NCBI RefSeq assembly: GCF_031312595.1
Contig: NZ_CP133592.1
Span: 682,001 to 746,000 of the forward strand
Direction: 5' to 3'
From: Methanolobus sediminis
GTDB lineage: Archaea > Halobacteriota > Methanosarcinia > Methanosarcinales > Methanosarcinaceae
DNA length: 64,000 nt
In this document: one piece after another, positions 3,239 to 4,585 of the stretch
Layout of the letters: each line of letters begins with the position of its first letter
How positions within the stretch are numbered: position 1 is the stretch's first letter
Made by a program: the position numbers and the translations under genes
The notes under the pieces: generated by a model
The model's database searches: none
Told to the model about the DNA's origin: nothing
The model's input: only the letters and a program-made list of their open reading frames with translations

Positions 3239-3485
3239 TTGTTACACTAACCCTATTGCAAGTTATATCGATTTCCATGATATAAATTTATTATCAAAAA
3301 CAAATGGAGCGGGACTGTAAAAAAGTCCCAATATCCAAACTATGGAGTTGACCATCAATAACGGAATTAATGTATAACTTCATAAATAATCAGGCAATAT
3401 AAATCCGGAAGTTGAAACTGCATATATAACCAGCAGAATATTCGGTATGTCAACAAAAGATATTAAATATAACAAATAGATATAT
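3239..3485. other. Intergenic region between divergent kinase and HTH genes
   Basis: About 250 AT-rich bases without a gene. A small hairpin (GGGACT pairing with AGTCCC) lies near 3312-3329. TATA-like tracts suit divergent promoters. No other structure was recognised. Confidence 0.4.
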
Positions 3486-3497
3486 TCACAATTGTGA
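3486..3497. promoter_or_regulatory. Palindromic operator TCACAATTGTGA
   Basis: A perfect 12-base palindrome 38 bases before the HTH gene, flanked by TATA-like tracts at 3478-3485 and 3500-3512. The same 12-mer recurs at 4281-4292, with an 11/12 copy at 4304-4315. Autoregulation by the adjacent HTH protein is the simplest reading. Confidence 0.6.
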
Positions 3498-3535
3498 GAT
3501 TTTTTATTTAAAAACAACAATAAAAAGGAATATAC

Positions 3536-3847
3536 ATGAAATTACCATGTCAGATGATAGTCTGGGACGTATTACCCGCCATTAGAGCAGCCATTGCAGA
3601 AGAACTTATCAATTGCGGACTGTCACAGCAGGAAGTTGCCAAACAGCTTGATATGGCACCTTCTGCAGTTTCACAATACCTGTCCAAGAAAAGAGGCTAC
3701 AGGATTGTACTTGAGGATGATATGAAAGCATCTATCCGTGAGCTTGCCGAAGATATGAAAGAGAACAGGGTAGATGACCTTGCTTCAAGGATATGTGCAA
3801 TATGTAAACAGCTTAGAGAAGAAGGTCAACAATGTTCTAATGATTAG
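3536..3847 (+). CDS. Small HTH transcriptional regulator with C-terminal cysteine cluster
   Basis: A 103-residue protein. A helix-turn-helix at residues ~25-55 (GLSQQEVAKQLDMAPSAVSQ) is of the Xre/lambda-repressor type. It is followed by a YLSKKRG wing-like segment and an acidic helix. The C-terminus has CAICKQLREEGQQC; together with Cys5 this could bind a metal or Fe-S centre and act as a sensor (inference). ATG at 3536 has AAGGA upstream. The gene ends in TAG followed directly by TAA, notable in a lineage that may decode TAG as pyrrolysine. The same palindrome precedes this gene and the ThiS/MoaD leader opposite, suggesting both are its targets. Confidence 0.8.
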   Translation: MKLPCQMIVWDVLPAIRAAIAEELINCGLSQQEVAKQLDMAPSAVSQYLSKKRGYRIVLEDDMKASIRELAEDMKENRVDDLASRICAICKQLREEGQQCSND

Positions 3848-3883
3848 TAATACTTTTTTGATCCAAGTTGCTTTGACGAAGCA

Positions 3884-4078
3884 TCAGCCTCCGAATACAA
3901 CCTGGATAATCCTTATATCATCACTGTTTTCTAGAATGGTGTCTTCAGGAATAATACACTTGTTCTTTGATACAAGAACCTCACCCTGACTTATGTCTAA
4001 ACGTTGGAGTAATTCCTCTACTGTTAACGAATCTGTGACTAATTCCTTAATGTCACCATTTGGAAGTATTACTTTCAT
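3884..4078 (-). CDS. ThiS/MoaD-family ubiquitin-like sulfur carrier
   Basis: A 64-residue beta-grasp protein ending in Gly-Gly, the feature adenylated and thiocarboxylated by E1-like enzymes. It begins MKVILPNGD and contains LTVEELLQRLDI and EDTILENSDDIRIIQV, a pattern typical of ThiS/MoaD and archaeal SAMP proteins. It could donate sulfur for thiazole, molybdopterin or tRNA thiolation; the sequence does not decide. No E1 or partner synthase is nearby. ATG at 4078 follows AGAGG. It converges with the HTH gene and appears to sit at the end of a transcript starting near 4290, so its leader would be about 200 bases and contain the tRNA-like fold and two hairpins. Confidence 0.82.
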   Translation of the reverse strand: MKVILPNGDIKELVTDSLTVEELLQRLDISQGEVLVSKNKCIIPEDTILENSDDIRIIQVVFGG

Positions 4079-4146
4079 ATATTTGCCTCTTGAAAAAAAT
4101 GGAATGGAGGTAGTTTGGAATACTAGTTTGGAGTAGACGTTTTTCA

Positions 4147-4190
4147 GCAGGAGCCAGAAGACTCCTGCGGGATTTGAGGTTAAACCTCAA
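4147..4190 (-). other. Two hairpins in the ThiS/MoaD leader
   Basis: Two perfect 7-bp stems: GCAGGAG/CTCCTGC at 4147-4168 (8-base loop), and TTGAGGT/ACCTCAA at 4174-4190 (3-base loop). The second overlaps the 3' end of the tRNA-like element. Neither is followed by a U-run on the minus strand, so they look like leader structure and not terminators. Confidence 0.5.
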
Positions 4191-4260
4191 GCCAGGACCC
4201 GGACTTGAACCGGAACGACATCATCTTACAGAAGAATGTTAGCCGCACCAATTTCCTGGT
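4190..4260 (-). ncRNA. tRNA-like element or tRNA pseudogene
   Basis: The 71 minus-strand bases fold partly as a tRNA. The T-arm is canonical: TCCGG, loop TTCAAGT, CCGGG. The acceptor pairs six of seven positions (ACCAGGA with TCCTGGC), leaving an A-C mismatch at the end. The D-arm is stunted (TTGG/CTAA, 5-base loop), and the anticodon stem pairs only four of five around a loop that would read CUG, so it is not a convincing functional tRNA. It lies between the operator pair at 4281-4315 and the ThiS/MoaD gene. A decayed tRNA or a tRNA-mimicking 5' leader are both possible. Confidence 0.45.
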
Positions 4261-4280
4261 AATTGGCAATTTATGCCTGG

Positions 4281-4315
4281 TCACAATTGTGATAGAGCAT
4301 AATACACAATTGTGA
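4281..4315 (-). promoter_or_regulatory. Twin palindromic operators at the ThiS/MoaD promoter
   Basis: TCACAATTGTGA at 4281-4292 and a one-mismatch copy at 4304-4315 have centres 23 bases apart, about two helical turns. On the minus strand a TATA-like tract (near 4316-4327) lies just upstream, so the palindromes overlap the expected start of transcription, as expected for repressor sites. Confidence 0.6.
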
Positions 4316-4463
4316 TATTTAAAAATAACGTTCGTACAATGGCTAATAAAATACATTGATGCCAAAATCTAAAGCAAATAGACAGTCCACAGGCAAGAAC
4401 ATTGACAAAAACACTATATTTATCTTCAATGAGAAACATGCAGAACGAGCTTAATATTATTGC

Positions 4464-4535
4464 GGACCTGTAGTGTAGCGGATATCACTTAAGCCTCCGG
4501 AGCTTAGAACCCGGGTTCGACTCCCGGCAGGTTCG
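4464..4535 (+). tRNA. tRNA-Arg (anticodon CCG)
   Basis: A full cloverleaf of 72 bases. The acceptor GGACCTG pairs with CAGGTTC. The anticodon stem TAAGC/GCTTA encloses loop CTCCGGA, giving CCG. The T-arm is CCGGG TTCGACT CCCGG, the discriminator is G, and no CCA is encoded. A TATA-like tract near 4412-4421 probably drives it. No intron or integration remnant adjoins it. Confidence 0.93.
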
Positions 4536-4585
4536 TTCCATTAGTCCTAGAATCCCTATTCTATCAAAATCATTTTGGCGATCCC

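Follow-up and report, generated by a model that had tools for sequence, protein, structure and literature searches.

A helix-turn-helix (HTH) protein of 103 amino acids from Methanolobus sediminis is probably a local, autoregulated repressor of the genes that supply cysteine and mobile sulfur, and it would act through the 12-base palindromic operator TCACAATTGTGA in methanogens of the orders Methanosarcinales and Methanomicrobiales. The operator, its position and conservation, the genes that it marks, and the conserved cysteines of the protein are read directly from sequence, and from these we infer DNA binding by the HTH protein, repression, and the signal. The window is the whole stretch of 64,000 nucleotides that was analyzed, and the regulator gene occupies positions 3536–3847 of its plus strand. 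The encoded protein matches HTH_3 and HTH_24 above the Pfam cut-offs and belongs to the Cro/C1 type (PF01381, 26.3 bits compared with the curated cut-off of 23, residues 20–53). On the minus strand, positions 3884–4078 encode a ThiS/MoaD/SAMP-like sulfur carrier of 64 amino acids, which is assigned by its ThiS-family domain (Pfam ThiS, PF02597, E = 1.6e-8, above the cut-off; SAMP2) together with a C-terminal GG (C terminus VVFGG). The open reading frames confirm the convergence of the two genes described in the initial annotation, so that their promoters are separate. Upstream of the regulator region, positions 157–1716 contain a gene for a flavoprotein resembling sulfide:quinone reductase (NCBIfam NF049943, 283 bits, below the cut-off) and a DUF1641 gene.

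Three copies of the operator, none assigned to a strand, lie around this gene pair. The first (3486–3497) is an exact match at the regulator's own promoter, and the second (4281–4292) is an exact match on the predicted start of the ThiS leader and is kept in orthologous leaders. The third (4304–4315) reads TCACAATTGTGT on the minus strand and ACACAATTGTGA on the plus strand and abuts a TATA-like box, TTTAAATA (4316–4323, minus strand), which was recognized from sequence and is represented by TTAAATAT or TTATATAT at the matching place in relatives. The palindrome had been described as identical at all three places, which is correct for the copies at 3486 and 4281, whereas the copy at 4304 is off by one base. 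In the aligned ThiS leaders of relatives a second palindrome copy also precedes the one on the predicted start with unchanged spacing, in some cases with an extra mismatch.

Site counts in the whole 2.8 Mb genome were obtained by pattern searches, which found only three exact copies of TCACAATTGTGA compared with approximately 0.3 expected from base composition, and no exact copy of the reversed control palindrome. All three are located at promoters, those of the HTH regulator, the ThiS-like gene, and a divergent cysteine desulfurase/SepCysS pair, and two of them are only 800 bp apart. When one mismatch is allowed the enrichment is mild, with 15 places compared with 10 for the control, so that single degenerate sites are credible only when they are conserved; conservation was tested and found. 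The one-mismatch site at genome position 176111 precedes a PEP carboxylase gene, and those at 598064, 1416614, 1813909, and 2701716 are located inside genes and were set aside as chance matches. Within the window, matches with two mismatches show no excess. This last result, and the ability of the two operators to pair in the folded ThiS leader, would fit a palindrome that is chance or repeat sequence, or a hairpin in the transcript RNA, but such an origin has a close to negligible probability, as it is contradicted by the genomic rarity of the palindrome, its conservation, and its co-occurrence with the regulator. The 59 composition-matched palindromes used as controls are nearly devoid of exact copies, and at many targets there is just one site, close to the start point. 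Since most other targets carry one site, operator-operator pairing in the ThiS leader was discounted.

Comparison within the genus of the host (27 genomes, the named matches in the genus being Methanolobus) identified regulator orthologues in 25 genomes, 22 of which have the operator at the regulator promoter, and ThiS-like orthologues in 24 genomes, with a promoter site of at most one mismatch in 21. Named genomes were scanned more widely and yielded 80 loci with a regulator orthologue in Methanosarcinales and Methanomicrobiales, many of them in the latter order. These loci hold 83 exact operators, compared with 0–1 for each of the 59 permuted, composition-matched palindromes per locus group. 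In Methanomicrobiales most regulator orthologues have an exact operator, mostly at about −60 from the start codon. The initial annotation had named two outcomes that would speak against an operator, frequent occurrence in random intergenic DNA and lack of conservation beside orthologues; the palindrome is instead rare in the genome and strictly conserved beside orthologues in both orders. Four regulator orthologues (L028, L031, L255, and L257) have no recognizable site, indicating either a drifted site or no autoregulation.

The sites also track the presence of the regulator. Exact sites are present in 67 of 79 family genomes with the regulator and in 5 of 33 without it (Fisher p = 3e-12, an optimistic value that is uncorrected for the relatedness of these genomes), whereas a control pattern shows no difference with regulator presence among the family genomes (p = 0.58). 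Most regulator-bearing genomes that lack an exact site, in Methanococcoides and some Methanohalophilus, contain variants such as TCACAATAGTGA. Within a genus, genomes that have lost the regulator have also lost the sites, as the two Methanolobus genomes (G125 and G126) and four Methanosarcina genomes (G156, G163, G172, and G173) without it have none. One genome, G169, which is 75% complete, has seven sites and no regulator. A paralogue with 37–42% identity persists in genomes where the regulator and the sites have vanished. In the host, a cysteine-bearing HTH paralogue with 37% identity is encoded directly after iscS-iscU (L319:1498–1866; genome position 1640726) with no operator nearby. Conserved sites alone cannot name the binding protein, and a different regulator could bind TCACAATTGTGA, the HTH gene being merely one of its targets. 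This is very unlikely, since most of the 80 orthologues have the site at the HTH promoter and genomes that lose the HTH gene lose the site as well, whereas the paralogue beside iscSU in the same genome is siteless and persists where the sites vanish.

The position of the operator within the promoter is consistent with a repressor geometry. In 56 regulator promoters aligned on the operator, the operator itself is 91–100% conserved with poorly conserved flanks, and two recurring stretches precede it, one rich in A (−26 to −24) and one rich in T/A (−22 to −16). The corresponding TATA-like element of the window, ATTAAATATA (3462–3471, plus strand), lies ∼15–24 bp before the operator and recurs in the aligned promoters. 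The operator is located ∼25 bp past the TATA-like stretch and, in the orthologues, ∼60 bp before the gene and centered on the predicted start site. The distance from an archaeal TATA box to the transcription start is usually ∼25 bp, and a protein bound at this position should therefore block RNA polymerase or assembly of the pre-initiation complex. The operators of the HTH, nadA, ThiS, SepCysS, and tRNA-Cys promoters lie between the TATA box and the transcribed region or on the predicted start, an arrangement typical of blocking, which makes it unlikely that the HTH protein activates its targets. The exception is a pair of sites at genome positions 186027 and 186041 (L047), which is located upstream of a TATA-like box and not at the start, a position that would fit activation or a different promoter. 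With repression as the preferred reading, the HTH protein would bind TCACAATTGTGA and repress its own gene, and in the window it would use two operators to repress the convergent gene for the ThiS-like carrier.

The genes marked by the operator extend well beyond sulfur carriers. The third exact copy in the host genome (2504100) lies between a SufS-type desulfurase gene and a SepCysS gene. Genes resembling ThiF/MoeB and MoaE follow the SepCysS gene, and on the SepCysS side the exact copy is accompanied by two copies with one mismatch. One-mismatch promoter copies precede nadA (2507896) and a tusA-dsrE2-nifS-nifU operon (2785062), and the pair at 186027/186041 is upstream of two family-less genes followed by a tusA gene near sulfate-assimilation genes. 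The family-less genes (277 and 152 amino acids, L047:4496–5784) are positioned between the operator pair and tusA as if inserted after the promoter. Four other genomes likewise have two sites 14 bp apart close to the second tusA. Within the genus, the operator is present at tusA-dsrE2-nifS-nifU in 15 of 24 cases and at the accessory SepCysS gene in all eight, and the genus-wide SepCysS copy has none. In many relatives the genes for the desulfurase and the accessory SepCysS directly flank the regulator gene. In Methanosarcina it is divergent from iscS-iscU-nadA and adjoins tRNA-Cys-metY-metX and cysK-cysE, all of which bear operators. Its neighbors in Methanohalophilus-like genomes are iscS, SepCysS, and metY/metX, and in Methanosalsum the divergent gene encodes cysteinyl-tRNA synthetase. 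Further operator-marked genes at the 80 loci, named by sequence resemblance, are nadA, cysK, and pdxS. Near operator copies in a Methanosarcina genome there are also nitrogenase-like genes (Oxidored_nitro and NifH-like; L231:11969–14878 and L232:5127–6532), possibly for sulfur salvage, with two exact sites a few hundred bp past the 3′ end of a NifH-like gene, and, again near operator copies in Methanosarcina, transporter-like genes (L230:6599–8184), perhaps a sulfur-source uptake system. The prediction of an autoregulated switch for sulfur-carrier supply is strongly supported by the comparative data in regard to the switch, but its scope was too narrow, as desulfurases, accessory SepCysS, tusA-dsrE2-nifS-nifU, iscSU, nadA, cysK, metY/metX, and tRNA-Cys genes are marked as well.

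The tRNA-Cys genes are the unusual members of this set. The 80 named loci were selected for the regulator, without regard to tRNA genes. Of the 18 tRNA-Cys genes that they contain, 16 are preceded within 100 bp by an operator, in most cases at a distance of 8–14 bp, compared with none of the 12 other tRNA genes. The operator is mostly located between the TATA box and the tRNA. Further tRNA-Cys copies in the genus lack the operator but have a TATA box. Seven Methanolobus genomes carry an intact tRNA-Cys(GCA) between the operator and the ThiS-like gene. In the window this position is occupied by a degenerate remnant (4191–4260, minus strand), recognized by alignment to the true tRNA-Cys(GCA) of relatives, in which the T arm is retained along with most of the acceptor stem, and the loop is GTA where tRNA-Cys has GCA. 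ARAGORN and Rfam make no tRNA call at the remnant, so that no cloverleaf with a GCA anticodon is recognized there, whereas relatives have it intact. The leader continues with a hairpin TGAGG...CCTCA (4175–4189, minus strand), found by alignment and consensus fold, and a hairpin GCAGGAG...CTCCTGC (4147–4168, minus strand) followed by AAAAACGT (4137–4144, minus strand). The second hairpin is kept in 13 aligned leaders, with several pairs changed on both sides. The two hairpins and AAAAACGT (4137–4189) are conserved after the tRNA-Cys, decayed or intact, and AAAAACGT is additionally found before the tRNA in some relatives, indicating that it flanks a cassette. Rfam matches in the leader are restricted to the neighboring tRNA-Arg and weak chance matches, so no known riboswitch accounts for it. 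The tRNA-Arg(CCG) gene (4463–4536) is divergent from the ThiS leader and stays at the locus in nearly all genus genomes.

These arrangements give about an even chance that a sulfur-sensing repressor sets the level of a dedicated second class of tRNA-Cys on which cysteine is made, while operator-free tRNA-Cys serve translation. The supply of the biosynthetic tRNA-Cys, the accessory SepCysS, and the sulfur carriers would then be switched together by sulfur status. Outside the window, the HTH protein would control accessory SepCysS, desulfurases, IscU, TusA/DsrE2, NadA, CysK, MetX/MetY, and the operator-bearing tRNA-Cys. A drop in sulfur or cysteine status would lift repression, and the resulting joint production of carriers, desulfurases, and, where intact, the dedicated tRNA-Cys would yield more cysteine, either free or on tRNA.

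The sensor is probably held by four cysteines, Cys-5, Cys-87, Cys-90, and Cys-100, and could be a metal, Fe-S cluster, or persulfide switch. The C-terminal CxxC...C proposed earlier is present as Cys-87, Cys-90, and Cys-100, and Cys-5 is an additional conserved cysteine absent from that proposal. Cys-5, Cys-87, and Cys-90 are invariant in all 41 regulator orthologues compared, and Cys-100 is kept in 36 of the 38 having a residue at that position; the three invariant cysteines suggest a metal, Fe-S, or persulfide sensor. The AlphaFold model is of moderate quality (pLDDT 72.7) with Cys-5 undefined, and sequence and fold searches of the PDB with the regulator gave weak generic HTH similarity only and no clue to a ligand. 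It is possible, if somewhat doubtful, that this protein, with an unchanged regulon, responds primarily to the status of Fe-S clusters, with the cluster-loaded form repressing and the apo form releasing the operator, as in an archaeal functional analogue of IscR. The one N-terminal and three C-terminal conserved cysteines would suit such a signal, as would the targets iscS-iscU (divergent, in Methanosarcina) and nifS-nifU (in Methanolobus) and the nadA site present in the window genome and at L256. NadA is a known 4Fe-4S enzyme. Many targets, however, supply cysteine or methionine and not clusters (SepCysS, tRNA-Cys, cysK, and metX/metY), the loci examined revealed no sufBC or ferredoxin target, and sensing of cysteine, sulfide, or persulfide fits equally.

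The proposed repressor of cysteine and sulfur supply can be compared with several known systems. IscR, the Rrf2-family repressor of bacterial Fe-S (ISC) genes, which binds a [2Fe-2S] cluster, is likewise small and autoregulated, has conserved cysteines, and controls iscS-iscU and related genes, but the similarity is confined to this logic. Its operator and cysteine layout differ, no Rrf2 winged HTH domain was matched in the HTH regulator in Pfam or NCBIfam, and the regulon here extends to tRNA-Cys, SepCysS, cysK, and metX/metY. Bacterial regulators of the CymR, CysB, and McbR type also place cysteine, methionine, and sulfur-source genes under one regulator, but they belong to different protein families, and here the promoters are archaeal and sulfur carriers and tRNA genes are included. 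The ThiR-type archaeal thiamine regulator joins an HTH to a ThiN domain; the HTH regulator has no ThiN domain and ends 50 residues past the HTH. MsvR, a methanoarchaeal redox regulator, is a V4R-domain protein, and Pfam gives no V4R match in the 103-residue regulator. DNA binding by MsvR depends on cysteines (PMC3729527), whereas the target set here is sulfur and cysteine supply.

Mukai et al. (2017) described clade VII SepCysS genes with tRNA-Cys and sulfur genes next to them (PMC5424206), and the main text of that paper contains no regulator or operator, the string "regulat" being absent. The shared operator and candidate repressor tie these accessory SepCysS/tRNA-Cys clusters together and separate them from the operator-free tRNA-Cys and SepCysS copies. 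The Methanosarcina locus L235 resembles the iscSU2 cluster of Methanosarcina acetivorans (MA2717–MA2718), as described in the available portions of PMC7585200, in the IscS active-site motif STGSACNS (IscS2, MA2718) and in its methionine and NAD neighbors. Those portions name no regulator of iscSU2, and what is new here relative to them is an HTH gene, divergent from iscS, together with its operators. No published description of the regulator, or of TCACAATTGTGA as an archaeal operator, was found in a search that covered mainly open-access literature, and on this basis the regulon is treated as unreported and of a known general kind, with the operator-marked tRNA-Cys genes as its unusual feature.

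Judged from its sequence context, the HTH protein looks like an unrecognized sulfur-supply switch of methanogens of the host type, for which little is known about how cysteine supply and Fe-S biogenesis are controlled, despite a heavy dependence on Fe-S enzymes. One small protein and a strictly conserved 12-base operator provide a testable candidate for this control, including in the genetically tractable M. acetivorans. That some tRNA-Cys genes carry the operator suggests that tRNA-dependent cysteine synthesis can be induced and is equipped with a tRNA of its own. If true, a tRNA used for biosynthesis would be regulated through a single conserved transcription-factor operator in two archaeal orders, and this would bear on why several tRNA-Cys genes and two SepCysS copies persist in these archaea.
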